A model generated the notes under the pieces. The model did no database searches. It saw nothing but the letters and a program-made list of their open reading frames with translations, and was not told the DNA's origin. Below are positions 9,500-63,889 of a stretch of 64,000 nt of DNA, one piece after another; the first letter of the stretch is position 1, and every line of letters starts with the position of its first letter. A program made the position numbers and the translations under genes. Source of the DNA: Microvirga lotononidis (GTDB lineage Bacteria; Pseudomonadota; Alphaproteobacteria; Rhizobiales; Beijerinckiaceae); assembly GCF_034627025.1 (NCBI RefSeq), contig NZ_CP141050.1:866001-930000 (forward strand). Reading direction: 5' to 3'.

Positions 9500-10246
9500 T
9501 CAAGCGTCGGCTGGCGTGTGGCGGGTCTTGCGCAGGCTCTCGCCGGTCAGATTAATCCGGTAGGCGTTGTGCACGACCCGATCGAGGATGGCGTCCGCCA
9601 GCGTCGGAACGCTGCCGATCATCGCGTACCAGTTCTCGACCGGCACCTGGCTCGTGATCAGCAGCGAACCGGCATCGTAGCGGTCCTCGACGATTTCCAG
9701 CAGATCGCGCTGCTGCTCGCCGGTGAGCGCCTCAGGACCCCAGTCGTCGAGGATCAGCAGCTTGGCCCGGGCAAGACTGCGTAACAGGCGAGAGTAGCGG
9801 CCATCGCTGCGGGCGAGATCGAGCGCCGCAAACAGCCGTGGCACACGATGGTAGAGCACCGACAGGTCCTCCCGGCAGGCCCGGTGTCCCAGGGCGCAGG
9901 CGAGCCAGCTCTTCCCGACCCCGCACGGGCCGGTGATCAACAGATTGCGCCGCTCGCGGATCCAGTCGCAGGTGGCCAGCTTGAGAAACAGCGCCCGGTC
10001 GAGGCCGCGTGCGGCCCGGAAGTCAACATCCTCGACGCTGGCGGGATGGCGCAGTTTGGCCGTTTTGGCCCGGGTCTCGCAGCGCTTCTGCTGCCGCGTC
10101 GTCACTTCATGATCGAGGATCAGGCCGAGCCATTCGGCATGGCCGAGCGCGTCAGCCTCGGGAGTGGCGCTGAGCGCCTTGAAGCCTTTGGCCATGCCGT
10201 GCAGGCCCAGCGCGTGAAGCTGGTCGAGGGTGGGATGGATCAACAT
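9500..10246 (-). CDS. istB: IS21 family helper ATPase IstB
   Basis: A 248-residue AAA+ ATPase that assists the IstA transposase in target-DNA assembly. It shows the IstB-type N-terminus (LDQLHALGLHGMAKGF), Walker A in ITGPCGVGKSWLA, Walker B in LLILDDWGPE, and a sensor segment LITSQVPVENWY. I chose the start at 10246 (MLIHPTL), because the longer frame to 10288 runs into the istA end region. It follows istA by 13 bases, as expected for coupled IS21 genes. Confidence 0.93.
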   Translation of the reverse strand: MLIHPTLDQLHALGLHGMAKGFKALSATPEADALGHAEWLGLILDHEVTTRQQKRCETRAKTAKLRHPASVEDVDFRAARGLDRALFLKLATCDWIRERRNLLITGPCGVGKSWLACALGHRACREDLSVLYHRVPRLFAALDLARSDGRYSRLLRSLARAKLLILDDWGPEALTGEQQRDLLEIVEDRYDAGSLLITSQVPVENWYAMIGSVPTLADAILDRVVHNAYRINLTGESLRKTRHTPADA

Positions 10247-10259
10247 GGTCGGTCTCCTG

Positions 10260-11792
10260 TCAGTGGAAATACCCCGGTCCGCGGACATTGGGGTGGGTGA
10301 GAACGGGCGTATCGGCGGCGGGAGCGCGCTCGCGGTAGGTGTCGAGAAGCGACACGATGCTCTTGTAGGTCAGCGCCTGGATCGCCAGGGCTTTGGCCGC
10401 GACCGCCTCGACACGCTCCTGCGGGATGCCGCGCATGTGCTGCAAAACCCCGATGCAGGTGCGAAAGCCCTGCTCGGGATGGCGGCGGGCGGACAGAATG
10501 GCGGCAATCAGCCCCTCGGTGTTGGGGCCGATCGACGCCGCCCAGGAGCGGAAGCGCTCGGGCGACCAGGCGGCATAGCGGCGATGCGAGCTCGGCATGT
10601 GCTCGGCCTGCGTGCCATGCGCCCGTCCCGCATAACGCCGCGCGTGGGCCGCGACGCGTCCGCCTTTGTGGAAGGCCTCGATCGTGCGCTGGGTGACGCG
10701 CACCTCGACCTGCTGGCCGATGAGGCCAAATGGCACCGAGTAGAAGAAGCCCTCGACCTCGATGTGGTAGTCGAGCCCGACCCGGGCGAACTGCCACTGC
10801 GCGAAGACGTAGTCCTCGGCCGGCAGGGGTGCGAGGGCCGGCTTCTCGATCGTCTCGAACAACTGGCGCCGGCTGACGCCGAGCCGGCGCATGGGTACGC
10901 TGTTCATCCGCTCGACGGCCTCGGCGATCGCGGCATTGGCCTCCTGGAGCGAGAAGAAGGTGCGGTGGCGCAGGCGACCGAGAATGTAGGATTGGGCGAA
11001 GCGCACCCCGGCCTCGACTTTGGCTTTGTCCTTCGGCCGGCGCGGTCGGGCTGGCAAAATGCCGACCGCGTAATGGGCCGCCATCTTGCCGTAGCTGCGG
11101 TTGATCTCGGGATCGTAGAACGAGGCCTTGTGGACGCCGCTCTTCAGGTTGTCCGGCACGACGAGCTTGGTCACGCCACCCTGGAACCGGAACATGCGCA
11201 CATGCGCCTCGATCCAATCCGGCAGGGTCTGGGTCCAGGTGGCTTCGGCATAGGTCAGGTTGGAGGCGCCGAGCACCGCGACGAAGATCTCGGCCTGGCG
11301 GATCTCGCCGGTGAGTGGATCGACGATCGGCAGCTTCTTGCCCGAGTAATCCACGAACACCTTGTCGCCGGCGACGTGATGCTGACGCATGGTCGGCGTC
11401 AGGCGGCGCTCGAAGGAGCGGACCAGGTCGCAGAAACGCGAATAGCCGTAGCCGTCCGGATGGTCTGCCCGGTACTCCTCATGCAGGATGGCGATGCTGA
11501 CGCCGGGCCGCTTGAGTTCCTGGACCAGGTGAGCCCAATCCGGCTCCGGCCGGCGGCGCGTTCCGACCCGGGTGCCCGCCCGGGCGAACAGCTTCTCCTC
11601 CAGGGCCGCGTCGGTCAGGTCCTCCGGCAGGGGCCAGGCCAGCCCGGCCGCCTTGGCCCGCTGGATGGCATCGCGCACGGTCGAGCGCGCCGCACCGACA
11701 ATCCGGCCGATCTCGCGATCGCTGGTTTGGCTGGCGTGGAGCCGCAGCACTTGCCGCATCTGTCGCATGGTCATCTCTCTGTTTGCTGGCAT
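10260..11792 (-). CDS. istA: IS21 family transposase IstA
   Basis: A 510-residue DDE transposase. An N-terminal helix-turn-helix (ASQTSDREIGRIVGAARSTV) binds the terminal repeats. The rve integrase core shows the catalytic D-D-E in VFVDYSGKK, VVPDNLKSG and DKAKVEAGVR, and the C-terminal part has the Mu-transposase-like beta domain. Start taken at the ATG at 11792 (MPANREMTMRQ); the frame extends to 11828 but lacks a better start. No internal stop or frameshift is seen, so the element should be active or only recently silenced. Confidence 0.93.
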   Translation of the reverse strand: MPANREMTMRQMRQVLRLHASQTSDREIGRIVGAARSTVRDAIQRAKAAGLAWPLPEDLTDAALEEKLFARAGTRVGTRRRPEPDWAHLVQELKRPGVSIAILHEEYRADHPDGYGYSRFCDLVRSFERRLTPTMRQHHVAGDKVFVDYSGKKLPIVDPLTGEIRQAEIFVAVLGASNLTYAEATWTQTLPDWIEAHVRMFRFQGGVTKLVVPDNLKSGVHKASFYDPEINRSYGKMAAHYAVGILPARPRRPKDKAKVEAGVRFAQSYILGRLRHRTFFSLQEANAAIAEAVERMNSVPMRRLGVSRRQLFETIEKPALAPLPAEDYVFAQWQFARVGLDYHIEVEGFFYSVPFGLIGQQVEVRVTQRTIEAFHKGGRVAAHARRYAGRAHGTQAEHMPSSHRRYAAWSPERFRSWAASIGPNTEGLIAAILSARRHPEQGFRTCIGVLQHMRGIPQERVEAVAAKALAIQALTYKSIVSLLDTYRERAPAADTPVLTHPNVRGPGYFH

Positions 11793-11987
11793 CGCGTCCT
11801 CTCTGGTGGAGAGGTCGCAATGCCCCAATCGGATGACCCGGTGCAGCAGGGTTCTTCAGACCGATCCCTGGACGGGATCAAATCGGAAGGAGGGACGGCT
11901 TCAAGTCGGAAGGGTGGACGGGATCAAATCGGAACCGGGGACGACTTCAAGTCGGTACACATGGACGGATTGCGTCGGTATCCGCAG

Positions 11988-13072: not shown

Positions 13073-13221
13073 TCGTCCGACAAGCAGCAATCCGCAGTAA
13101 CGATGGCCGACTTTATTTATCCGATAAAACTTCCAGGTAGATCCAAACGATCATAATACTGCTTTACCAAGGTACTGTCCGGTCCGGGTCTTGGTCGTGT
13201 CAAAACGCTTTGGCCGAAGGG

Positions 13222-13359
13222 GAATGTCACATTAACTGAGTATAGCCGTCGTGCGGTCCGGCAAGGTCAGTTTTTGCATCCCGCAAGCCGTTGATTTTCC
13301 TCTGTCCGAGATTTTTCCTTGACCAGTACAGGGCAGTATTCCCGGTTAATGTGACATCC
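13222..13359 (-). repeat. MITE-like 138-bp element, copy A
   Basis: A short non-coding element with near-perfect terminal inverted repeats: the reverse complement begins GGATGTCACATTAAC and ends GTTAATGTGACATT. It resembles the elements at 24465 and 41359 over its whole length, including the internal ACTCAGTTAATGTGACAT end and the block GTCAAGGAAAAATC. Copy A is inverted relative to the other two. It ends about ten bases before the stop codon of the RpiR gene. I do not recognise the parent transposon. Confidence 0.8.
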
Positions 13360-13369
13360 CCCGCCGTAG

Positions 13370-14320
13370 TCACACTCTGCGTCTGGGAATAGCTGTCGCG
13401 TAGGTGTTGAGCGACGATAAGTGGCGGTCAGTCTTCTGCAGGGCCTCCACGGCGGCAGCGCGGTCCATGTTAGCCAATAGGCCACAGAGCACTTCGGAGA
13501 CGGCGAGCGCCGGGGTTAGCGTATGGAAAAAGGTCGGGCTCTCGATTGTACAGAGGATCACGCTATCCGAGATTGAGACCAAAGGTGACACTTCACTGTC
13601 GGTGATGGCGACAATGCCGAGCCCTTTCTCGCGAGCGAGCTCGGCGAGTTCGAGGCTGTGGACCGCATAGGGATTGATGGAGGCGACCAGAAGCACGTCC
13701 TCGGCTCCCGCCCGGATAAGACCGTCGCCGATAGTCCCGGCTGGGCCGTCGAGATGGACCGTCTTATCGCCGATCAGCGCCATCACGTAATGAAAGTGCC
13801 AAGCCACCAAATGACACGAGCGCAGCCCGAGGACGTAGACTCGGCGCGCCCGCGCAAGCCGTTCCGCCGCCGCGCTCAACCGAGCGAGCGACTCGGGCTC
13901 GCACAGGCGCGCGATTTGCCCGGCGACACCCTGAAGCATCTGGCGCGCGAATGTCTCGCTGCCTACCTCCTGCCCGCTCTCTCCCCTCTGCAGCGCGCGC
14001 GCTGCGAAGCCGTCGATGCGGTGGCGGATCGCTTCGGCGTAGTGGGCACGGACATCGTCATAGCCCGGGAGCCCGAGAAACTTCGCCATACGTGTCATCG
14101 TCGAGGGCTGAACGCCCGCATTGCGCGAGAGCTCACGCATGGAGACGAGGGCCACCTCTTCGGGGTGCTCGAGAACATAGCGCGCCGCCTGCTGCAACTG
14201 AGGAGGCATGTCGTCGAACCTACTGACGATGAGGTCGCGCAAGGAGGCATTTTGCAACATTTGGATCGCTTCCGCTTGGAACTCTACGCGAGCGTTGTCG
14301 GTCAACGGGGCCGTCTTCAT
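13370..14320 (-). CDS. MurR/RpiR family transcriptional regulator
   Basis: A 316-residue regulator with an N-terminal HTH_6 domain (SRFDDMPPQLQQAARYVLEH and the recognition region RNAGVQPSTMTRMAKFLGL near residues 65-90) and a C-terminal SIS domain (VYVLGLRSCHL; VASINPYAVHSLEL; VAITDSEVSPLVSISD) that senses phosphorylated or amino sugars in known members. It is divergent from the aminotransferase-MlrC-importer genes and probably controls them, though a non-sugar inducer seems likely here. A pair of direct repeats lies in the shared promoter region (14361-14399). Its 3' end abuts MITE copy A. Confidence 0.88.
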   Translation of the reverse strand: MKTAPLTDNARVEFQAEAIQMLQNASLRDLIVSRFDDMPPQLQQAARYVLEHPEEVALVSMRELSRNAGVQPSTMTRMAKFLGLPGYDDVRAHYAEAIRHRIDGFAARALQRGESGQEVGSETFARQMLQGVAGQIARLCEPESLARLSAAAERLARARRVYVLGLRSCHLVAWHFHYVMALIGDKTVHLDGPAGTIGDGLIRAGAEDVLLVASINPYAVHSLELAELAREKGLGIVAITDSEVSPLVSISDSVILCTIESPTFFHTLTPALAVSEVLCGLLANMDRAAAVEALQKTDRHLSSLNTYATAIPRRRV

Positions 14321-14360
14321 ACCCTTTTTCTGAGCTTTTGGCCACTTGCATACGGATTCG

Positions 14361-14399
14361 AATGTTTCATCATTCCAAGCTTATTACATAAATGTTTCA
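14361..14399. promoter_or_regulatory. Direct-repeat candidate operator for the RpiR regulator
   Basis: AATGTTTCA occurs at 14361-14369 and again at 14391-14399, exactly 30 bases apart (about three helical turns), in an AT-rich stretch of an otherwise GC-rich region. It lies between the divergent RpiR and aminotransferase genes, where an operator is expected. No binding data are available. Confidence 0.5.
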
Positions 14400-14502
14400 C
14401 TGACCATGTTTTTAAAATTATTGTTGCATCGGTCCTAATGGCATGCAAGGTTCGGGCCCGCGGCCCTCCGAGGTTGAAGCCGAACGACGAACCGGAGCCA
14501 AG

Positions 14503-15828
14503 ATGACTAGGATTCTCCACCGCACTATCGGATCACGGTTGCCAGAAGCCGTGGCCGGCCAGGGCATCTACATCACAGATAGCGACGGCAAGAGCTACAT
14601 TGACGGTTCGGGCGGCGCCGCCGTCTCCTGTCTTGGCCACGGCCATGTGGAAGTGCTCGATGCGATGCGGGCGCAGATGGACCGGATCGCCTATGCCCAC
14701 ACTTCGTTCTTCACGACAGACGTCGCGGAATCCCTCGCCGAGCGCCTCGCCGCGCTGGCACCGGAGGGCCTCGATCACGTCTATCTGGTCTCCGGCGGCT
14801 CGGAGGCCGTTGAGGCGGCGCTCAAGATGGCCCGGCAGTATTTCGTCGAGATCGGCCAGCCCCAGCGTCGCCACATTATCGCGCGCCGCCAGAGCTACCA
14901 CGGCAACACGATCGGCGCGCTGGCGACCGGCGGCAATGCTTGGCGGCGGGCGCAGTTCCAACCCATCCTACCTAAGACCCACCACGTCTCCCCCTGCTAT
15001 GCCTACCGGGACCAGCAGGCCGACGAGACGCCGGAGGCCTATGCGGCGCGCCTTGCCGACGAACTCGAGGCGAAGATTCTGGAACTTGGACCCGACGAGG
15101 TTATCGCCTTCGTCGCAGAGCCGGTCGTCGGGGCAACGCTCGGTGCCGTCGGGCCCGTGGCTGACTATTTCGCGCGGATCCGCAGGATCTGCGACAAGTA
15201 CGGCGTGCTGCTGATCCTCGACGAGGTGATGTGCGGTATGGGTCGCACGGGCACACTGTTCGCCTGCGAGCAGGACGGGATAGTCCCCGATCTCGTCACC
15301 ATCGCCAAAGGCCTCGGCGGTGGCTATCAGCCGATCGGCGCCGTGCTCCTGTCTGACCGGATTTACCGGGCGTTCGCCGAGGGCTCAGGCCTGTTTCAGC
15401 ACGGCCACACCTACATCGGCCACCCGATCGCGGCAGCTGCCGCGAACAAGGTGGTCGAGATCCTAGCCCAACCGGGTATGATGGAGGACGTGCGGGATAG
15501 GGGCGAGCGCCTACAAGCTGGTCTCGATGCGGCGCTCGGCCAGTCGCCGCACGTCGGCGACATCCGCGGCCGCGGTCTCTTCCGCGGCATCGAAATCGTT
15601 GCTGACAAGGAGACAAAGGCTCCCTTCGATCCGTCACGCCGCGTCCACTCACGGATCAAGAGAGAGGCGATGGCGCGCGGCCTTCTCTGCTACCCAATGG
15701 GCGGCACCATCGACGGTGTGCACGGCGATCACGTGCTGCTCGCCCCGCCATACATCATCAGGCCGGAGGAGATCGACCTGCTCGTCGAACGCCTCGCTGC
15801 GGCGATCGACGCCGCGCTTCGGGACTGA
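14503..15828 (+). CDS. Class III PLP-dependent aminotransferase
   Basis: A 441-residue fold-type I aminotransferase of class III, the group that acts on omega- and beta-amino acids. Visible are the GGSEAVEAALKMAR segment (98-111), LILDEVMCGMGRTG with the PLP-ring aspartate at 240, and the Schiff-base lysine at 269 in TIAKGLGGGYQP. Start chosen at the ATG at 14503 because the longer frame to 14443 has a low-complexity leader. It is the first gene rightwards from the RpiR promoter, 10 bases before the M81 peptidase. Given the BKACE enzyme at the operon end, a beta-amino acid to beta-keto acid reaction is plausible; substrate specificity is not visible. Confidence 0.87.
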   Translation: MTRILHRTIGSRLPEAVAGQGIYITDSDGKSYIDGSGGAAVSCLGHGHVEVLDAMRAQMDRIAYAHTSFFTTDVAESLAERLAALAPEGLDHVYLVSGGSEAVEAALKMARQYFVEIGQPQRRHIIARRQSYHGNTIGALATGGNAWRRAQFQPILPKTHHVSPCYAYRDQQADETPEAYAARLADELEAKILELGPDEVIAFVAEPVVGATLGAVGPVADYFARIRRICDKYGVLLILDEVMCGMGRTGTLFACEQDGIVPDLVTIAKGLGGGYQPIGAVLLSDRIYRAFAEGSGLFQHGHTYIGHPIAAAAANKVVEILAQPGMMEDVRDRGERLQAGLDAALGQSPHVGDIRGRGLFRGIEIVADKETKAPFDPSRRVHSRIKREAMARGLLCYPMGGTIDGVHGDHVLLAPPYIIRPEEIDLLVERLAAAIDAALRD

Positions 15829-15838
15829 GATCACCGAG

Positions 15839-17308
15839 ATGGGCCTCCGCATCGCATTCGCCGGTTTCAACCTCGAATCCGTGACGGCCGTCCCACAGTC
15901 GGTCGGCCTCAATGAGTTCGAACGCGTCTGTGTGCGCGGAGAACAGATCACTGTTCGCTTCCGCGGCACCAACACGGTGCCGGGCGGCTGTATGAAGGTG
16001 TGCGAGGAGCTTGGCGCTGAATTCGTGCCGCTGTTCCACACTTTGCTGGGCGCTCTAGGTCCGGCGACTGACGAGGCGGTCGACCACTACACCCGTGAGA
16101 TCATCGAGGGCCTCGGCAGTAACGGCTCTCTCGACGGCGTGATCCTGTTCCTGCACGGCGCCTGCTGGGCCGCGGGCTATGCGGATGTCGAGCGGCATGT
16201 GATCGATGCGGTGCGCGCCGCGGCGCCGTCGCTGCCGGTCGCCGTCGCGCTCGACTATCACGGCAATATCGACCGGCAGACCCTGCGCGGAGCGGATATC
16301 GCCGTCGCCTATCGCAACTCGCCGCATATCGACATGGGCGAGACCGGTGAGCGGGCCGCGCGGGCACTGCTCAGGCTGCTGCGCGAAGGGCGCCGCCCTG
16401 GCCTTGCAGTGGCGCGCCCCAATGTCGTCATCCCCTCAATCATGTCGGCCACGGCCCTGGAGCCGCTGGCTTCGATCATCGCCGAGGCGCGTGCCGCCGA
16501 GGCGGCGGGCGATTGCGACATCTCGGTGATGGCCGGTTTCTCCTACGCCGACAGCGCCAATACCGGCATGTCGGTAATCTGCCTTGATTGGAACGGGCGG
16601 GAAGCGGCCGAAGCCAAGGCCGCGGCCTTCTCCACTCGGCTGCACGACGCGCGCCACGCCATCGCAAGCGCTATTCCGATCCTAAGCGCCGAGGAGGCTT
16701 TGGCCGATATCGAGCGCAAGCCAGCGAACGGCCGCCCGATTGTGCTGCTCGAACATGCCGACCGCATGAACGACTCGACCCACCTGTTGCGTGCCCTGCT
16801 CGGCCGCGATGTTGGACGGGTCGCTGTGCCTTTCCTGCTCGATCCCGAGACCGCCGCCCAGGCCCATGCGGCAGGAGAGGGTGCCGAGATCGCGGTCGCC
16901 TTGGCCGGCAAGACGGCGCCGGAAACGGGCGGGCCGGTCGAGGCGGTAGCGCGCGTCCTCTGGTCTGGTCCAAAATCCTTCACTGTCTCGGGCCGCTACC
17001 AGCGCGGCTCCTTCGTTGACCTCGGGATGACAGCGCTGATTCAGATCGGCGCGATCCGCGTCTCGGTCGTCTCGCATTTCGCCTTCGCGGTCGACGGAGA
17101 TCCCTTTTCCATCTTCGGCGAGCAGCCGGAAGACTACGACGTCATCCTGCTGCGCTCAAAAACGCATTTCCGTGATTTTTACGAGCCGCTGGCCGACCGC
17201 ATCCTGGTGGTCGATACGCCCGATCTCGGCCCGGCCGATGTCCGACTAATCCCGTATCGGCAGCTCGACACGGCCAAAGCCTATCCGTGGAGCGACGCTC
17301 CAGCCTGA
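15839..17308 (+). CDS. M81 family metallopeptidase (MlrC-like)
   Basis: A 489-residue protein of the MlrC family, founded by the enzyme that cleaves linearised microcystin. The N-terminal M81 domain has likely zinc ligands in ALDYHGN and NSPHIDMGETG, and the C-terminal MlrC domain includes FSVSGR-type sequence and EQPEDYDVILLRSKTHFRDFY. Start taken at the ATG at 15839; the longer frame lies inside the aminotransferase. Other M81 members act on varied non-standard amide or peptide substrates. It sits between an aminotransferase and a peptide importer, consistent with hydrolysis of an imported peptide containing an unusual amino acid. Confidence 0.88.
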   Translation: MGLRIAFAGFNLESVTAVPQSVGLNEFERVCVRGEQITVRFRGTNTVPGGCMKVCEELGAEFVPLFHTLLGALGPATDEAVDHYTREIIEGLGSNGSLDGVILFLHGACWAAGYADVERHVIDAVRAAAPSLPVAVALDYHGNIDRQTLRGADIAVAYRNSPHIDMGETGERAARALLRLLREGRRPGLAVARPNVVIPSIMSATALEPLASIIAEARAAEAAGDCDISVMAGFSYADSANTGMSVICLDWNGREAAEAKAAAFSTRLHDARHAIASAIPILSAEEALADIERKPANGRPIVLLEHADRMNDSTHLLRALLGRDVGRVAVPFLLDPETAAQAHAAGEGAEIAVALAGKTAPETGGPVEAVARVLWSGPKSFTVSGRYQRGSFVDLGMTALIQIGAIRVSVVSHFAFAVDGDPFSIFGEQPEDYDVILLRSKTHFRDFYEPLADRILVVDTPDLGPADVRLIPYRQLDTAKAYPWSDAPA

Positions 17309-17343
17309 CACCAAGAACCAACCAAACCAGAAGCGAGGGAACA

Positions 17344-18924
17344 ATGACATTACGGTTAAAGACATTCGGGATTGCCGCGCTGCTCGCCGGTTCCCTCCAC
17401 GCCTTCCCGGCTTTTGCCGAGACGACGCTCAACGTCGTGATGCAGGCACCGCTCAGGACCCTCGATCCGATCCTGAGCACCGCCCAGATCGTGCGCACGC
17501 ATGGCTTCATGGTGTTCGAGACGCTGCTCGGCATGGACGCCAAGTACAACCCGCAGCCGCAGATGGCCGATTACACCGTCTCGGCCGACAAGATGACCTA
17601 TACCTTCACCCTGCGCGACGGGCTCAAATGGCATGACGGCACGCCGGTGAAGGCTGAGGATTGCGTAGCCTCGATCAAGCGCTGGGCCGCCAACGACGGC
17701 GCCGGTCGCACGATGATGACGTATGTCGCTTCCGTCGAGGCGACCTCCGACAAGCAGCTCGTCATCAAGCTGGCGAAGCCCTTCGGCCAAGTACTGGAAC
17801 TCCTGGCGAAGCCCTCGCCGGTGCCGCCCTTCATGATGCCCAAACGCCTCGCCGAGACGCCCGCCGGCCAGCAAGTGACCGAGATGATCGGTTCCGGTCC
17901 GTTCAAGTTCGTCGCCGACCAATATCGGCCCGGCGATCAGGCCGTCTACGTCAAGAACTCCGACTACAATCCGCGTCCCGAGCCAATGAGCTGGACCGCC
18001 GGCGGCAAGGTCGTGAATGTCGACAAGGTCGTCTGGAAGGCGATGCCAGACATGCAGACCTCGATCAACGCGCTGCAGTCCGGCGACGTCGACCTGATCG
18101 AGCAGGTCACGATCGACCTCCTGCCGCTGCTCACGGCCAATGACGAGATCAAGACCGGCGCCATCAACGCGCTCGGCAGCCAAGTCACCGGCCGCTTCAA
18201 CCACCGCCTGCCGCCCTTCGACAATCCGAAGGTCCGCCAGGCGGCGATGTATGCGCTTGATCAGGACCAGCTCATGCAGACCGCAATCGGCGACAGCCAG
18301 TATTACAAGCTCTGCGCCTCGGTTTATGGCTGCGACGTGCCGCTCGCTTCAGATGCCGGCTCGGAATATCTCAAGGGCAGCGCCAAGGAGCGCCTGGCGA
18401 AAGCCAAGGAGCTGCTGAAGGCCTCCGGCTACGACGGCACGCCGGTGCTGATGATGCAGCCGACGGATCTGACGATCCTCTCCACCCAGCCGATCGTCGC
18501 GGCCGAGCGTCTGCGCGAGGCCGGCTTCAAGGTCGATGTGGCCGCGATGGACTGGGCGACGCTGCAGTCGCGCAAGAACAGCACGCAGCCGGTGGCGCAG
18601 GGCGGCTGGAACATGCTGTTCACCTATTGGGGTGTTTCCGGCATCTGGAACCCGACCGTGCATGCCCTGCTCGACGGTTCGGGCTCGGACACCGCATGGT
18701 CGGGCTGGCCACGTAGCGCCCGCGTCGAGGAACTGCGCTCCGCCTATCTCACCGCACCGACACTCGACGAGCAGAAGAAGATCGCCAAGGAGATCCAGCA
18801 GATCGCCTATGACGAAGGCTTCTATTTCAATGCCGGCGAGTTCCAGTCCGTCGCCGCCTGGCGGGCGAACCTGAAGAACCTCCAGCCCGGTCCGCTCACG
18901 TTATTCTGGGGCGTAAGCAAGTAG
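17344..18924 (+). CDS. Peptide ABC transporter substrate-binding protein (SBP family 5)
   Basis: A 526-residue periplasmic binding protein of the Dpp/Opp class. A Sec signal peptide is clear (MTLRLKTFG, hydrophobic core, AFPAFA before ETTLNV). The body has the usual LRTLDPILSTAQIVRTHG and FTLRDGLKWHDGTPVKAEDC segments. The ATG at 17344 is preceded by GCGAGGGA; the longer frame starts inside the spacer. It follows mlrC by 35 bases and is separated from the permeases by a hairpin, which may allow extra binding protein to be made over the membrane components. Confidence 0.92.
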   Translation: MTLRLKTFGIAALLAGSLHAFPAFAETTLNVVMQAPLRTLDPILSTAQIVRTHGFMVFETLLGMDAKYNPQPQMADYTVSADKMTYTFTLRDGLKWHDGTPVKAEDCVASIKRWAANDGAGRTMMTYVASVEATSDKQLVIKLAKPFGQVLELLAKPSPVPPFMMPKRLAETPAGQQVTEMIGSGPFKFVADQYRPGDQAVYVKNSDYNPRPEPMSWTAGGKVVNVDKVVWKAMPDMQTSINALQSGDVDLIEQVTIDLLPLLTANDEIKTGAINALGSQVTGRFNHRLPPFDNPKVRQAAMYALDQDQLMQTAIGDSQYYKLCASVYGCDVPLASDAGSEYLKGSAKERLAKAKELLKASGYDGTPVLMMQPTDLTILSTQPIVAAERLREAGFKVDVAAMDWATLQSRKNSTQPVAQGGWNMLFTYWGVSGIWNPTVHALLDGSGSDTAWSGWPRSARVEELRSAYLTAPTLDEQKKIAKEIQQIAYDEGFYFNAGEFQSVAAWRANLKNLQPGPLTLFWGVSK

Positions 18925-18936
18925 CCCTCCTACAAC

Positions 18937-18960
18937 GGGCGACGGCGGGAGCCGTCGCCC
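18937..18960 (+). terminator. Intercistronic hairpin after the binding-protein gene
   Basis: A perfect 10-bp stem (GGGCGACGGC and its complement) with a GGGA loop between the binding-protein gene and the first permease. It lacks a T-tract, so partial termination or protection of the upstream mRNA end is more likely than full termination, as is common after binding-protein genes. Confidence 0.6.
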
Positions 18961-18996
18961 GGTCCTGCAGGCATCGTTTTCGGCGCGGAGCACCGC

Positions 18997-19941
18997 ATGG
19001 CTTCTTACTTCCTGCGCAGGCTGCTAATGGCGATCCCCGTCATGTTCTTCGTGGCGCTATTCGTCTTTCTGTTGTTGCGTCTGACGCCCGGCGACCCGGC
19101 CCAGGCGATCGCCGGCGATCAGGCCACGCCAGCCCAACTCGCCGCCATCCGCGAGAATCTCGGCCTCGACAAGCCGCTCACCAGCCAGTTCGTCGCCTGG
19201 ATCGGTGCCATGGCCGGAGGCGATTTCGGTCACTCGCTGATCTCGCAGCGACCGGTGCTGGAGATGATCGGCCAACGCATCGGCCCGACGCTGGCCCTCG
19301 CCGTCATGGCGATGATCTTCACGGTCGTCATTTCGCTTCCGCTCGGCGTGCTCGCGGCCTGGCGCCACGGCGGGCTGGTCGACCGCTTCGTCATGGCCCT
19401 GTCGGTTGTCGGCTTCTCGGTGCCAATCTTTGTGATCGGCTATGTGCTGATCGCAGTTTTCGCGGTCGATCTGAAGTGGTTCCCGGTGCAGGGCTACAAG
19501 CCCCTCTCTGAGGGCTTCGGCCCATTTCTCCACCGCATTCTGCTGCCTGGGTTGGCGCTCTCCTCCTTCTATATCGCGCTGGTTTCGCGGATGACGCGCG
19601 CCTCGATGCTGGAGGTGCTGCGCGAGGATTATGTGCGCACGGCGCGGGCGAAGGGACTAGGCGAGCGCGTCGTCCTGTTCCGCCACGCTCTGCGCAACGC
19701 CGCGATCCCGATCCTCACGGTGGTCGGCACGGGCTTCGCGATGATGATCTCCGGCGTCGTCGTCACCGAGACGGTCTTCAATATTCCCGGCCTTGGACGG
19801 CTGGTCGTCGACGGCGTTCTGGCGCGCGATTACCCCCTGATCCAGGCGATTATCCTGCTGACCGCCGGCACGTATGTTCTGATCAACCTCTTGATCGACC
19901 TGTCCTATGCATTGAGCGACCCGAGGATCCGCTACCAATGA
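18997..19941 (+). CDS. ABC transporter permease, DppB type
   Basis: A 314-residue permease beginning MASYFLRRLLMAIPVMFFV, with the DppB-type segment LTPGDPAQAIAGDQATP and ENLGLDKPLTSQF in the first periplasmic region. The EAA loop is VRTARAKGLGERVVLFRHAL. Five to six membrane helices follow. It overlaps the next permease by four bases (ATGA). Confidence 0.92.
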   Translation: MASYFLRRLLMAIPVMFFVALFVFLLLRLTPGDPAQAIAGDQATPAQLAAIRENLGLDKPLTSQFVAWIGAMAGGDFGHSLISQRPVLEMIGQRIGPTLALAVMAMIFTVVISLPLGVLAAWRHGGLVDRFVMALSVVGFSVPIFVIGYVLIAVFAVDLKWFPVQGYKPLSEGFGPFLHRILLPGLALSSFYIALVSRMTRASMLEVLREDYVRTARAKGLGERVVLFRHALRNAAIPILTVVGTGFAMMISGVVVTETVFNIPGLGRLVVDGVLARDYPLIQAIILLTAGTYVLINLLIDLSYALSDPRIRYQ

Positions 19942-20810
19942 GCGCCTCATCGAATCCCATGCAGGTCACGCTTCCCCGGCGCCGCCTGCTGCAGAACCCG
20001 CCGCACTGGACGACGGTGCTCGCCGTCATCGTCTTGCTCGCCGTTGTCGCGATGGCTGTGTTCGCGCCGCTGCTCGCCAATTTCGAGCCGACCAAGCTCA
20101 ATGCCGCCATGCGGCTAAAGCCTTCGTCCGACACCTACTGGCTAGGTACGGACAGCTTCGGCCGCGATCTCTATTCGCGGGTGGTGTATGGCGCGCGGGT
20201 CTCGCTCCTGGTGGGTGCTGGCGTCGCCGCCGGCGCGATCCTGATTGGCCTGCCGCTCGGCTTACTCGCGGGCTGGTATCGCGGGATCGACGGCGTGCTG
20301 ATGCGGATGATGGACGGCCTGATGGCGATCCCCGGCATCTTGCTCGCCATCGCGATCGTCGCGCTGACCCGCGGCGGGCTCGTGACTGTGATCTTCGCCA
20401 TCATGATCCCGGCGATCCCGCAGGTCGTGCGCTTGGTGAGGGCGCGCGTGATTGCAGCCCGCGAGGAGACCTATGTCGACGCGGCGGTCCTGCTCGGGAC
20501 GCCGCCGGCCAAGCTGATCTGGAAGCATCTGCTTCCGACGACGATCGCGCCCCTGATCGTGCAGGGCACCTACATGTACGCCTCCGCCATCCTCACGGAG
20601 GCGGCCCTGTCGTTCCTGGGCGTTGGAATCGGCACCGAGATCCCAAGCTGGGGCAATATCATGGCCGAGGGTCGGCTCTATTTCGCGATCAACCATTGGC
20701 TGGTGTTCTGGCCGGCCATCGTGCTGTCGCTGTGCATCCTGTCGATCAATCTGCTCGGCGATACGCTGCGTGACCGGCTCGATCCGAAAATGCAAGGGAG
20801 GAACGCATGA
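19938..20810 (+). CDS. ABC transporter permease, DppC type
   Basis: A 290-residue permease with one helix near residues 28-50, the family segment YWLGTDSFGRDLYSRVVYG, and the EAA loop near YVDAAVLLGTPPAKLIWKHL. The C-terminus ends with the common LGDTLRDRLDPK. It pairs with the DppB-type subunit and is translationally coupled to the fused ATPase that follows. Confidence 0.92.
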   Translation: MSASSNPMQVTLPRRRLLQNPPHWTTVLAVIVLLAVVAMAVFAPLLANFEPTKLNAAMRLKPSSDTYWLGTDSFGRDLYSRVVYGARVSLLVGAGVAAGAILIGLPLGLLAGWYRGIDGVLMRMMDGLMAIPGILLAIAIVALTRGGLVTVIFAIMIPAIPQVVRLVRARVIAAREETYVDAAVLLGTPPAKLIWKHLLPTTIAPLIVQGTYMYASAILTEAALSFLGVGIGTEIPSWGNIMAEGRLYFAINHWLVFWPAIVLSLCILSINLLGDTLRDRLDPKMQGRNA

Positions 20811-22483
20811 CCGAGATGGCCCGCCCGACGCAGCCCGTGCTCTCGATCCGCGACCTGCGCGTCGCGACGCGAGGGCGTGAGCCCTCCAAGATTCTGAAGG
20901 GCATCACCTTCGACATCCAGCCGGGCGAGACGCTGTGCCTCGTCGGCGAATCCGGCTCGGGCAAGTCGGTGACCTCTCTGGTCGCTATGGGCCTGCTGCC
21001 GCGCGACGAACTGCAGGCGACGGGCGGCACGGTGTTGCTCAACGGTGAAGACATCCTGACCGCCACGCCGTCACGCACTAAGGCGCTGCGCGGCGCCGAG
21101 ATGGCGATGATCTTCCAGGAGCCGATGACGGCGCTTAACCCGGTGCTGACCATCGGGCTGCAGATGGACGAGGTCTACTGGGCGCATACGCAGATGCGGC
21201 CGAAAGAGCGTCGCGAGGCTGCGCTCGCCGCGTTCGAAGCGGTGCACCTGCCTGATCCGGCGCGGATCTACGAGAGCTTCCCGCACCAGCTCTCCGGCGG
21301 CCAGCGCCAGCGTGTGATGATCGCGATGGCACTCGCCCTGAAGCCGAAACTCCTGATCGCCGACGAGCCGACTACCGCGCTCGACGTCACCACGCAGAAA
21401 CAGATCCTCAGCCTGATCCGTGAGTTACAGGACAAGCAGAACACCGCCGTTCTGTTCATCACCCACGATATGGGCGTGGTCGTCGATGTCGCCGACCGCG
21501 TCTGCGTCATGCGCCGGGGCGAGATCGTCGAGACTGGTCCGGTCGAGCAGGTGCTGAGCCAGCCTCAGGAGGCCTATACGCGCGACCTGCTGCAGGCAGT
21601 GCCGTCGCTGGTTCCGCGCGCCCCACGCGCCCCGGCACAGGAGGCGGAAGCCGTCGTTGAGATCCGAAATCTCGAAAAGACCTTCAGCTTTTCCTCACTT
21701 TTCGGGAAGCTGATGGGGCGCGACATCCGCACTGTGCGCGCCGTGAACAACGTCAGCTTCAAGTTGGCGCGAGGGCGCACGCTCGGCATCGTCGGCGAGA
21801 GTGGCTCGGGTAAGTCGACGGTCGCGCGCTGCCTGCTTAGGCTTGAGCATCCGACCGGCGGCGAGATCCGTGTCAACGGCCAAGACATCGCGTTGCTCGA
21901 GGGCCAAGCGGCGCTGGCGCCGGCTCGGCGGCGCGTGCAGATGGTCTTCCAGGACCCCAACCGTTCGCTCAATCCGCGCCTGCGCATCGGCGAAAGCCTG
22001 ATCGAGGGGCCGCTCAATCTTGGCGAGGATCGCGCCTCCGCGCTGAAGCGCGCTAGCGAGCTGGTCGAGGTGGTCGGCCTGCCGCGCACCAGCCTCGAAC
22101 GCTTTCCTCACCAGTTCTCCGGTGGCCAGCGCCAGCGCATCGCGATCGCGCGCGCCCTAATGATGGAACCGGAGGTCATCGTCGCTGACGAGGCCGTCTC
22201 GGCGCTCGACGTCTCGGTGCAGGCGCAGGTGCTCGCTCTGCTGGCTGAGATCCAGCAGCGCCGCAATCTCGCGGTGCTGTTCATCACCCATGACCTGCGT
22301 GTTGCAGCCCAGATCTGCGACGAGGTGATGGTGATGCAGCGCGGCCGCGTCGTCGAGGACGGACCGGCCTCCGAAGTGCTGGCCAGACCGCGTCACGACT
22401 ATACACGCGCCTTGATCAACGCAGCGCCGGGGCGGGACTGGGATTTCGCCGCCGGACGCCGCATCGCCGGAGCCGACGCATGA
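20807..22483 (+). CDS. Dipeptide-type ABC transporter, fused double ATP-binding protein
   Basis: A 558-residue protein carrying two complete ATPase domains, equivalent to DppD and DppF joined (as in GsiA-like proteins). The first half has [23 protein letters not shown] and [11 protein letters not shown]; the second has [23 protein letters not shown] and [12 protein letters not shown]. In the second Walker B region the usual EPTSALD is EAVSALD; the catalytic glutamate is kept. It overlaps the flanking genes by four bases on each side. The first importer of this window uses two separate ATPases, so the two systems are of different lineages. Confidence 0.93.
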
Positions 22484-23382
22484 TTTCCGCCAGCCTTGTC
22501 CAGTTCGACGTCCAGTGCTTGGCCCCGGCTGAGAACTTCGGGCGTATCCACGACTTCGTCGCCCTCGAGGCGGCACATGGCGCGCAGCTCATCCTGTTCC
22601 CGGAGCTGTCGAACACCGGCTATGTCGAGCCGCTGGTGCCGGGCGGGCCGATGGTCAGTGACGTGCCGCATTTCGGCGCGGCGCTTTACGAGGCCTGCGC
22701 AGCTCCGGACGGTGAGGAGATCAAGGCACTCGTCACGCTCGCGGCACGGCATCGCGTGCATCTGGTGATCGGGCTCGGCCTGCGCGACCAGCTCCGCGCC
22801 GGAGTGATGCGCAATGCTTCGCTGCTGATCGGGCCGGAGGGCGTGTTGGGCCAATATACCAAGGTCCATCAGTGGCAGAACGAGAAGCTCTACTTTACCA
22901 AGGGCGACCGCATCGACACCTTCGCCGCGCTCGGCACGCATCTCGGAATGCAGATCTGTTACGACATCCGCTTTCCCGAAATCACCCGCATCCTGGCGCT
23001 CCGAGGTGCCGGTATTGTCACGTCCGTCTGGGCATCCTTTGGAGCCGAAGCGACCCCAGTCGCCGATGGGGCGCTGTTCATCCACCGCGCCTATACCCGC
23101 GCAGTCGAGAACGGCGTCTTCTTCCTGAGTTGCAACCGCAGCGGCAGCCACGGCGGGCAGCGCTTTTTCGGCCGCTCCTGCGCATTAGCACCGGACGGGA
23201 CAGTGCTTGGCGCCCTCGACCACGACATGGAGGACGTGTTGCGGGTAGAGATCGACCTCGAGGCCGTCACCCGCTACCGTAGCTTCACCGGGATTTGGGC
23301 CGATCGTGATCCTACCCTCTATGAGAAGTATCTCTCCCCGGACCGCTCGGATTCCCGCCGCTCCCCACCCGAAAAGTCATAG
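22480..23382 (+). CDS. Nitrilase-superfamily carbon-nitrogen hydrolase
   Basis: A 300-residue amidase-type hydrolase with the Glu-Lys-Cys triad visible: E42 in FPELSNTGY, K128 in GQYTKVHQW and C160 in QICYDIRFPE. Members hydrolyse amides, carbamoyl amino acids or nitriles through a thioester intermediate. No signal peptide, so cytoplasmic. It overlaps the importer ATPase by four bases and is thus co-translated with it. A role in deamidating or decarbamoylating an imported beta-amino acid derivative fits the context, but the substrate is unknown. Confidence 0.87.
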   Translation: MISASLVQFDVQCLAPAENFGRIHDFVALEAAHGAQLILFPELSNTGYVEPLVPGGPMVSDVPHFGAALYEACAAPDGEEIKALVTLAARHRVHLVIGLGLRDQLRAGVMRNASLLIGPEGVLGQYTKVHQWQNEKLYFTKGDRIDTFAALGTHLGMQICYDIRFPEITRILALRGAGIVTSVWASFGAEATPVADGALFIHRAYTRAVENGVFFLSCNRSGSHGGQRFFGRSCALAPDGTVLGALDHDMEDVLRVEIDLEAVTRYRSFTGIWADRDPTLYEKYLSPDRSDSRRSPPEKS

Positions 23383-23494
23383 GGAGACGACTGATCCGCC
23401 GAGATCGCTGAAATGAGAGGCGGCGTCGCTCACGCCCTCCATGTCCAGCGTTCGATCCAGTATTAGCAACACGTGACTCAACTCGGAGAGATTG

Positions 23495-24337
23495 ATGCAG
23501 GACACCGACCACCGCTCACCGGTTGCGATCGCCGTTGCTCCCAACGGCGGGCGACGGACAAAGATCGATCATCCCAGCCTACCAATGACGCCTGGCGAAA
23601 TGGCTGGCACGGCGACCCAGTGCCTTGAGGCGGGAGCTTGCATGATCCACGTCCATGTGAGGGATCGCGAAGGCGGCCATCTTCTTGATGCGGACGCTTA
23701 CCGGGACACGACCGCAGCAATCCGTCAGGCCGTGGGCGAGCGCCTGGTCGTACAAATCACCAGCGAGGCACTCGGCATCTACAAACCCGACACCCAGATG
23801 GCGGTAGTACGTGCGGTGCGGCCCGAGGCCGTCTCCCTCGCCTTGCGCGAGCTCGTGCCCGACGATTCCGCCGAGTCCGCGTTCGCACAGTTCCTGAGTT
23901 GGGCGAAGCGTGAGCGGGTTGTGCCGCAAATCATTCTGTACTCTCCAGACGAAGCTGTGCGGTTGGCAGACATGCAACGCCGCGGGATAGTGCCGTTTGA
24001 GAACATCCCGGTTCTTTATGTTCTCGGACGCTACACAGTTGGGCAAACATCCAGCCCCGCCGACCTGCTTCCCTTCATCGCCCCCGACATGCCAGCGTTC
24101 AAGGACTGGATGGTTTGTGCCTTCGGCCGCTATGAGACGGCCTGCGTCACCGCTGGCGCCCTGCTAGGTGGGAGCGTGCGGGTCGGCTTCGAGAATAACC
24201 TGGAGCTCCCCGACGGATCGAGGGCAGGCTCAAATGCGGAATTGGTCGAGCGCGCCGCCACAGCAATGGCCGCATGCGGCTGCCCTGTCGCGACGGGGAC
24301 TGTGCTGCGGGAAACGTGGTCAAAGGACTTCGAGTAG
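23495..24337 (+). CDS. Beta-keto acid cleavage enzyme (BKACE, former DUF849)
   Basis: A 280-residue protein of the 3-keto-5-aminohexanoate cleavage enzyme family (PF05853). Zinc ligands appear as H-x-H in MIHVHVRD and the later glutamate in VGFENNLEL; the N-terminal VAPNGG is typical. These enzymes condense a beta-keto acid with acetyl-CoA to give acetoacetate and a new acyl-CoA. I start at the ATG at 23495, preceded by GGAGAG, although a TTG lies directly before it. It lies about 110 bases after the amidase. The residue that sets substrate charge in this family cannot be assigned here. Confidence 0.9.
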   Translation: MQDTDHRSPVAIAVAPNGGRRTKIDHPSLPMTPGEMAGTATQCLEAGACMIHVHVRDREGGHLLDADAYRDTTAAIRQAVGERLVVQITSEALGIYKPDTQMAVVRAVRPEAVSLALRELVPDDSAESAFAQFLSWAKRERVVPQIILYSPDEAVRLADMQRRGIVPFENIPVLYVLGRYTVGQTSSPADLLPFIAPDMPAFKDWMVCAFGRYETACVTAGALLGGSVRVGFENNLELPDGSRAGSNAELVERAATAMAACGCPVATGTVLRETWSKDFE

Positions 24338-24464
24338 GTTTGCAAACAGCGGGGTTCAACAATCTGCTATTTGCACAGCGCGGCGAAAGAACAAACCTTT
24401 CTAGGTGACGACAAATCTCACGCCTCTCTTCAGTCAACGAGCGCTTAAAATGCACTCTTCGAGG

Positions 24465-24590
24465 GGATGTCACATTAACGGCGAATACTGCCCTGGTCTC
24501 GTCAAGGAAAAATCCCGTGCGGAGAGAAAGCAACGGCTTGGCCTGTGCACAAACTGACCTCGTCGGGTAGCTCAACAGCAATACTCAGTT
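24465..24590 (+). repeat. MITE-like element, copy B (right end lost)
   Basis: Starts with the same GGATGTCACATTAAC terminus as copies A and C and follows them through the GTCAAGGAAAAATC block to ACTCAGTT, where the match stops and the right inverted repeat is absent. It lies 127 bases after the BKACE gene, in the opposite orientation to copy A, so the module 13370-24337 is bracketed by an inverted pair. Confidence 0.75.
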
Positions 24591-41211: not shown

Positions 41212-41358
41212 CATTCACCGCAAAGCCTCACCGGCGTGTGAGAAAGCAAGGTACCTGAGGAGCCCCGCGACTCTGAATGGATCTGTCGCAGGATTTTGTT
41301 TCGAAGTTTCAGCTACTGTGACCGTAGTTCCAGTTGCGGAGGTCATAGTGTTCAAGGG

Positions 41359-41496
41359 GGATGTCACATTAACGGCGAATACTACCCTGTACTCGTCAAG
41401 GAAAAATCTCGCAGTGAGAAAAATCAACGACTTGGGCTGTGCAAAAACTGTCCTTGTCGGTCAGCCCAAGGACTATACTCAGTTAATGTGACATCT
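41359..41496 (+). repeat. MITE-like 138-bp element, copy C
   Basis: The most complete copy: GGATGTCACATTAAC at the left end, GTTAATGTGACATCT at the right end, and the shared internal blocks. It ends ten bases before the first retained codons of the truncated IS110 transposase, so its insertion or a related rearrangement removed the front of that gene. Non-coding; no transposase of its own. Confidence 0.82.
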
Positions 41497-62053: not shown

Positions 62054-63549
<1,496 letters not shown>

Positions 63550-63708
63550 GTTCTCTTACGAGGTGGCGTCATGCCGCTTCTATCGGAACACTTGGAACAC
63601 TAGGGTCAGTCAGACCCTGCTATGCGGGACGCTGCCGTCTTCGCTTCTCTTCTCAATCCGGATACATCGACCGGGGCGTTGGCGCTGCTTCAGCGCGCGC
63701 TTTGGTTG

Positions 63709-63785
<77 letters not shown>

Positions 63786-63813
63786 TTGTCGTGTCGCCTC
63801 GTGACGAGGCTCA

Positions 63814-63889
63814 GGGGCCTTAGCTCAGCTGGGAGAGCGGTAGCTTTGCAAGCTTCAGGTCGTCGGTTCGATCCCGACAGGCTCCACCA
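63814..63889 (+). tRNA. tRNA-Ala (TGC anticodon)
   Basis: A 76-base cloverleaf with GGGGCCT acceptor (one G-T pair with AGGCTCC), anticodon loop CTTTGCAAG containing TGC, GGTTCGATCCC T-arm, and CCA end. Follows tRNA-Ile by 28 bases. Confidence 0.95.

Follow-up and report, generated by a model that had tools for sequence, protein, structure and literature searches.

Apparent replacement of a carboxymuconolactone-decarboxylase-family gene by a BKACE-like gene with a rewritten active site in an aminotransferase operon of Microvirga lotononidis

The described enzymes closest to the protein considered here are those of the BKACE/Kce family, such as CcaKce (2Y7D) and BKACE15 of Paracoccus denitrificans (8RIP). 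A related pathway idea comes from beta-phenylalanine catabolism in Paraburkholderia, where a beta-amino acid is likewise transaminated to a beta-keto acid; according to the accessible part of that report, this acid then decarboxylates spontaneously, and a BKACE step is not mentioned in that part (PMC6150868). We analyzed a stretch of 64,000 nucleotides of the 7.3 Mb genome of Microvirga lotononidis (assembly GCF_034627025.1, contig NZ_CP141050.1, here called C3, positions 866,001 to 930,000), referred to below as the window. It contains an operon of a class III aminotransferase (AT), an M81 metallopeptidase, a peptide-type importer, a nitrilase-superfamily amidase and a PF05853 (DUF849/BKACE-like) protein, next to a divergent gene for an RpiR-family regulator. 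It is well supported by our computations that this operon lost a gene of the carboxymuconolactone-decarboxylase family (CMD), kept a relic of it and gained the BKACE-like gene in that slot.

A scan with the M81 protein of the window yielded 79 loci, and in 23 of them (L012-L034, from Bosea, Paracoccus, other Rhodobacterales, Hoeflea, Shinella and others) an AT gene lies directly before M81, which shows that the gene set is more than a chance assembly. Importer and amidase genes follow in 21 of these 23 related clusters, with L026 being cut by a contig end and L032 lacking them, and RpiR adjoins AT in 22, the exception being L020. Protein identities to the window genes range from 61 to 96%, while the other 56 loci carry more distant M81 proteins of 28-57% identity. 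No BKACE gene was found in the flanking DNA retrieved for the 23 related clusters, which extends up to 10 kb, and the 23 whole genomes gave no BKACE match at the cut of 1e-35 used for the clade described below (best E value 4.9e-21, 30% identity). BKACE is thus not part of the conserved operon. A first-pass annotation of the same DNA had expected BKACE in homologous clusters and had itself named its absence from them as fatal to the pathway it proposed; absence is what these neighborhoods show. No prior description of the gene set was found among the open-access literature matches listed.

What follows the amidase in the related clusters, on the same strand, is a CMD gene, present in 21 of 23 at spacings from a 32 bp overlap to a 92 bp gap (script-picked starts). 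In L032 CMD comes after M81, and the contig of L026 ends before that point. Four CMD-like proteins were tested against Pfam, where CMD was matched above the cut-off for L012 and L294 and slightly below it for the more distant L297 and L042. After CMD, no common gene was seen among six loci examined. In the window, the amidase is followed by a relic only (23383..23464, plus strand), which continues the amidase frame, has stops at 23392 and 23464 and is best kept at 23398-23460. Read in the amidase frame, the stretch between amidase and BKACE gives GDD, a stop, SAEIAEMRGGVAHALHVQRSIQY and a second stop; the CMD protein of L034 contains WPAEIAEMRSGFAGALNVYRTMAH, and 13 of 22 residues are identical. 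At the DNA level the best match is to L016, with 84% identity over 45 bp and an alignment score of 41. Scores of at least 29 were reached by 6 of 22 CMD starts and by 4 of 2,132 control tiles, taken from the same loci with the CMD region excluded (control maximum 29). The relic tile ranks second among 1,162 window tiles, behind the amidase end, which is included in the compared stretch. The C-terminus of the window amidase is also about 13 residues longer than those of its L012 and L017 counterparts. Together, the relic and the position of the BKACE gene indicate that the CMD gene was destroyed and that BKACE now occupies its slot.

In the AT tree, the window AT falls within a clade of 28 tips (support 1.0), of which 25 have CMD, one is the cut locus L026 and two have BKACE, namely the window and plasmid IV of Paracoccus aminovorans; L018 and L293 represent the same species. 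The window BKACE itself groups with P0003, P0005, P0013 and P0008 (Microvirga), and then with L167 and the BKACEs of AT-RpiR-BKACE loci. It would derive from an AT-BKACE locus, the usual home of its clade.

This home was characterized in a class sample of 384 other genomes, presumably of Alphaproteobacteria, evenly drawn and searched at E values up to 1e-130 for AT and up to 1e-35 for clade BKACE. AT was found in 96 of these genomes, clade BKACE in 55 (56 of 385 when the host of the window is counted) and both in 47 (Fisher 4e-25, uncorrected for kinship). The pairing of AT and BKACE put forward in the first-pass annotation therefore holds well beyond this locus, with 41 of 99 AT genes lying within 3 kb of a clade BKACE, 39 of them on the same strand. 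Anchored on BKACE, AT lies within 8 kb in 44 of 69 loci and within 500 bp in 35, and a C45-type hydrolase lies within 8 kb in five. A 3-hydroxyacyl-CoA dehydrogenase-like gene within 500 bp characterizes six of the 69 (L170, L176, L213, L214, L229 and L230; identity Pfam-checked in L170 alone), all among the 25 loci without AT, and two of these, L229 and L230, carry an AT-like gene (39%). In L170 the clade BKACE also adjoins an MmgE/PrpD gene. The partners vary between lineages: Paracoccus pantotrophus has AT-BKACE with GlnHPQ and C45, Pantoea has AT-CMD with GlnHPQ and C45, and Rhizobium gallicum and plasmid pHRC017 of Sinorhizobium meliloti have AT-CMD. An RpiR-AT-CMD set between insertion sequences is found on the conjugative IncF plasmid pBH100alpha of E. 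coli (L296). On an S. meliloti plasmid (L290), AT-RpiR-BKACE stands between hydroxyproline genes and an ABC operon resembling SMb20278-20285; for the latter, the available text of PMC3596328 reports repression in a glnB glnK mutant when nitrogen is limiting, and higher expression in a glnD mutant.

In favor of the replacement, BKACE and CMD never stand together in 84 AT loci of at least 9.5 kb (48 with BKACE only, 30 with CMD only, six with neither and none with both). Several points weigh against the proposed history and the pathway built on it. The 84 loci were reached by way of an M81, BKACE or plasmid AT match, so that their split expresses an absence of overlap and no rate. In the class sample, 58 of 99 AT genes have no clade BKACE within 3 kb, and 14 of 55 clade BKACEs have no AT nearby. 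CMD was found in none of those 58 AT loci in a wider fetch that included some short contigs, and one further BKACE appeared among them (L362; a weaker match in L347 fell under the 150-bit cut), so many ATs manage with neither nearby; 18 of the 58 have a TAXI protein. Inner supports of the BKACE tree are partly weak (0.37, 0.72), and the nearest relatives, P0003, P0005, P0008 and P0013, are known as proteins alone, making the donor an inferred one. CMD and BKACE, moreover, need not share one compound. CMD was rejected as a general AT partner on the 0/58 count and is a partner in some lineages only. The six loci with neither gene are L026, L037, L039, L040, L041 and L061; in three of them, from Bordetella (L040, L041 and L061), M81, AT and a TAXI protein are adjacent.

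The clade to which the window BKACE belongs has a rewritten active site. We aligned 197 clade sequences, numbered on Kce (2Y7D) and all retrieved through their resemblance to the window protein: 73 from genomes (window included), 4 from plasmids and 120 database homologues. P0004 is identical to the window BKACE over the length of P0004. The zinc ligands His46, His48 and Glu230 and, in addition, Arg226 are kept in 197/197, and Tyr145 is mostly kept, with 4 Phe among the 73 genome sequences. The catalytic base Glu143 is Ile in every sequence (73/73, 4/4 and 120/120), and the exchanges of Gly84 for Glu, Ser82 for Thr and Asp231 for Asn are equally without exception. Glu141 of Kce is Gln in the clade (one His in 197) and Glu14 is mostly Arg. 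For comparison, all 17 canonical sequences examined retain Glu143 and Asp231. In the window protein, the variant site reads R20, H52, H54, T89, E91, Q145, I147, Y149, R229, E233 and N234. Tyr173 of the Paracoccus enzyme is equated with Tyr145 of Kce in the accessible part of PMC12871164, so that E171 of this enzyme corresponds to Glu143 of Kce; in BKACE15, the available text of PMC11961710 reports that E171L abolishes activity and that E171D leaves 5%. With this base lost throughout the clade, textbook BKACE chemistry cannot be assumed, and, judged from sequence, normal BKACE chemistry appears doubtful for these proteins.

The pathway of the first-pass annotation is affected in its last step. 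Import, amide hydrolysis and transamination remain the natural reading of the conserved cluster, while cleavage by a BKACE with acetyl-CoA to acetoacetate is not established, as the protein lacks the glutamate base needed by a characterized BKACE. We regard the scheme as originally written, in which beta-amino-acid peptides are imported and hydrolyzed, AT forms a beta-keto acid and a normal BKACE converts it with acetyl-CoA to acetoacetate and an acyl-CoA, as unlikely. It gains from the AT-BKACE linkage, from the retained zinc ligands, Arg226 and, mostly, Tyr145, and from a CoA-transferase gene near AT and BKACE in Sinorhizobium kostiense (1 of 69 loci), which would suit acetoacetate, but the exchanged base speaks against it, as do the homologous clusters, in which no BKACE was seen, and their genomes, which gave no match at the clade cut.

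In the AlphaFold model of the window protein (mean predicted local distance difference test score 88.5), Ile147 is part of strand 143-148, and Glu91 follows strand 85-89 at a distance of two residues; the model is poorly defined at residues 21-28, beside Arg20. Glu91, which is invariant in the clade, may stand in for the lost base. Going by the secondary structure of the model, it would be located past a strand end, like the zinc ligand Glu233. The protein scored 80.1 bits on the model for 3-oxoadipate-type BKACEs (NF053568, cut-off 350) and is thus placed outside that type. Arg20, at Kce position 14, was considered as a dicarboxylate mark and rejected: NF053568 members have Val, Ile, Leu or Gln there in 13 of 13 readable sequences, so that Arg20 lends no support to a dicarboxylate and beta-glutamate as a substrate is a guess.

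With about even confidence, we propose that the locus is an RpiR-controlled operon for nitrogen and carbon scavenging in which CMD was swapped for BKACE, AT providing an oxo acid that the BKACE-like or CMD-like enzyme consumes. The importer would take up a peptide- or amide-linked amino compound, which M81 and amidase would hydrolyze. AT would then strip the amino group, and the resulting oxo acid, in the simplest case a 3-oxo (beta-keto) acid, would be broken or decarboxylated by the BKACE-like enzyme or, in the relatives, by the CMD-like protein. A 3-oxo acid is favored because some clade BKACEs whose loci lack AT have a 3-hydroxyacyl-dehydrogenase-type gene as partner. The route from beta-amino acid to beta-keto acid is plausible, though unproven. 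Amides of beta-amino acids are cleaved by the microcystinase MlrC and by C45 enzymes such as Drosophila Tan. The first-pass annotation had leaned on the likeness of the window M81 protein to MlrC, but the protein is far from it, with 68.2 bits on NF041767 against a cut-off of 999. The N6-acetyl-beta-lysine pathway, another candidate considered, was dropped as it received no support in the literature matches listed.

Transporter genes near clade BKACEs give a partial hint to the substrate. A TAXI protein lies within 8 kb in 28 of the 69 BKACE-anchored loci and a TRAP permease in 26, while a GlnH-type protein occurs in five, none of them among the 28 TAXI loci; TAXI or GlnH-type genes are thus near 33 of 69. 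The one TAXI protein tested, from the AT-BKACE-TRAP operon of L175, is closest to 9OZ4 and to VcGluP (8S4J; 427 bits). The ligand of VcGluP is L-glutamate, with weaker binding of glutamine and pyroglutamate, as given in the accessible part of its description (PMC11574862). In our own reading of the alignment, its residues Y45, Q93, E125 and Y200 are kept in the L175 protein and M201 is replaced by Thr. In the available text of PMC12632250, L-glutamate is the proposed substrate of a TAXI system in Cereibacter sphaeroides. The one GlnH-type protein tested, that of L165, closely resembles E. coli GlnH (337 bits). For AT, these matches suggest a substrate similar to glutamate or glutamine. A glutamate-like alpha- or gamma-amino acid as the AT substrate, with BKACE-like and CMD-like proteins carrying out hydrolysis, lyase or tautomerization reactions on the product, fits these transporters and the existence of relatives with other chemistry (the DUF849 protein BsfD and cis-epoxysuccinate hydrolase); we consider it somewhat unlikely, the dehydrogenase-type partner in 6 of 69 loci being better suited to a 3-oxo acid. 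A bolder version of the scavenging proposal holds that the clade represents a novel enzyme within the BKACE superfamily with Glu91 as base for Glu143, which, together with AT, would degrade a glutamate-like beta-amino acid, for instance beta-glutamate (or its amide beta-glutamine), via 3-oxoglutarate, with a CMD-type decarboxylase being interchangeable with it. We rate this combination as distinctly improbable.

The two operon types also appear to share their control. An operator matrix was built from RpiR-AT intergenic sites of 22 BKACE-less clusters, and the window was scored with it on both strands. The predicted RpiR operator TTTAAAATTATTGTTGCA (14411..14428, plus strand) differs from the consensus TRNAACANNTGTTNCA by 2 mismatches and ranks first of 127,966 scored positions. 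A weak operator-like site just upstream of the BKACE start (23465..23482, minus strand) ranks tenth and is not separable from noise genome-wide. The host genome contains no exact operator site and, with 2 mismatches allowed, 161/162 operator hits compared with 274/280 for a reversed control; given fewer hits than the control, no further regulon genes can be named. Twelve BKACE loci were picked by hand (L167 and 11 with RpiR proteins of 40-46% identity; L185, L197 and L204, with similar RpiR identity, were left out), and in all 12 the best site per stretch of 16-25 kb is no more than 310 bp away from the start of BKACE, AT or RpiR. Its score is at least 13.7 in 11 loci and 7.7 in L167, compared with a median best score of 3.5 in 53 control loci, the top four of which reached 20.0, 16.4, 15.7 and 13.1. 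Seven of ten TAXI operons have an RpiR match, and in 7/7 of these the best site lies within 61 bp of the RpiR start; best scores in the other three are 5.5-10.5. In Microvirga VF16 there is one exact operator site for BKACE and another for AT. Based on the common motif, the BKACE and CMD operon types seem to be controlled by the same kind of regulator and, presumably, by the same kind of signal.

All genes named in the window are intact open frames with matching Pfam domains, at the places and on the strands first annotated, and RpiR is divergent from the plus-strand genes as reported. The RpiR gene (13370..14320, minus strand, 316 residues) encodes HTH_6 (34.4 bits, cut-off 28.3) and SIS domains. 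AT (14503..15828, plus strand like all genes that follow, 441 residues; Pfam Aminotran_3) is of the PRK07483 group, scoring 790.8 bits on NF005685 against a cut-off of 485, and contains a motif whose lysine we take to be the one that binds pyridoxal phosphate. The M81 protein (15839..17308, 489 residues) matches PF07364 (DUF1485, 256.7 bits) and PF07171 (MlrC_C, 110.4 bits), and its DxH and PHID motifs, presumably with a metal role, align with those of MlrC (7ylq). The importer consists of a family-5 (peptide-type) solute-binding protein (17344..18924, SBP_bac_5), an OppB/GsiC-type ABC permease (18997..19941), an OppC/GsiD-type ABC permease (19938..20810), both with Pfam BPD permease and NCBIfam matches, and a double ABC ATPase of YejF/GsiA type (20807..22483, Pfam and NCBIfam). 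An OppC_N match of a permease is slightly under its cut-off; all other Pfam matches of the set are above theirs. The amidase (22480..23382, CN_hydrolase) has Glu-Lys-Cys motifs that we assume to be the nitrilase triad. The BKACE gene (23495..24337, 280 residues) starts at ATG 23495, with TTG 23492 also being possible; PF05853 spans the whole protein (219.9 bits, cut-off 24.8) and has no other match in the host genome. Coupling by 4-bp overlaps, described in the first-pass annotation as the prevailing arrangement, is seen at three of seven junctions (permease/permease, permease/ATPase and ATPase/amidase), the others being gaps of 10, 35, 72 and, before BKACE, 112 bp.

The cluster is flanked by two copies of a repeat resembling a miniature inverted-repeat transposable element (MITE). 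One, with 26-nt terminal inverted repeats, lies at 13219..13362, 7 bp from the RpiR gene end; the other, inverted and 79% identical over 128 nt, is at 24463..24590. A further copy is found in the window at about 41356-41494, and the genome has 13 copies in total, of which 12 are on C3. We rejected a MITE-borne transposon as carrier of the cluster, since this copy number makes two flanking copies weak evidence. An IS21-like istB/istA pair, named from its frames alone, lies just upstream of the cluster (9500-11828, minus strand). Such surroundings suggest local rearrangement and, with the 112-bp gap and the degenerate operator before BKACE, would suit a gene inserted beside the operon as a chance passenger without functional link. 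We find this very improbable, because the gene has the position and strand of the last gene native to the operon, and AT and BKACE are found as partners again and again across the class sample. At the right edge of the window, an rRNA operon begins with a 16S rRNA gene followed by tRNA-Ile and tRNA-Ala (62055-63889).

What is new here is the replacement of a gene that left a relic, together with a widespread PF05853 clade that has a rewritten active site and often stands beside one AT. As the clade is found mostly next to this one AT, a single assay could name a widespread catabolic step, and the exchange of CMD for BKACE hints simultaneously at the kind of substrate used by both enzyme groups.

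Compared with known systems, the locus resembles the AT-M81-importer-amidase-CMD operon of Bosea, Paracoccus and others, for which we found no name: the same eight genes stand in the same order with a related operator, whereas the relatives end in CMD and the window in BKACE. With the AT-RpiR-BKACE loci of Sinorhizobium meliloti RCAM1115 (plasmid p_2) and Shinella sp. WSC3-e it shares AT (69-70% identity), BKACE (66-68%), RpiR and operator; M81, a peptide-type importer and a nitrilase-type amidase were not found in the 10-12 kb flanks fetched there, and the Shinella locus carries GlnHPQ and a C45 peptidase. BsfD of flavophos biosynthesis, as described in the accessible part of PMC12871164, is a precedent for a DUF849 member with an altered active site and non-BKACE chemistry, but there the Tyr is exchanged for Phe and a long loop carries Arg91, whereas the window clade alters the Glu base instead. 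With the BKACE/Kce family, finally, the clade shares PF05853, the His-His-Glu zinc site, Arg226 and mostly Tyr145, and the predicted alternation of strands and helices in the window protein would fit an alpha/beta barrel; it differs at Glu143, Gly84, Asp231, Glu141 and mostly Glu14, and it sits with AT and RpiR.

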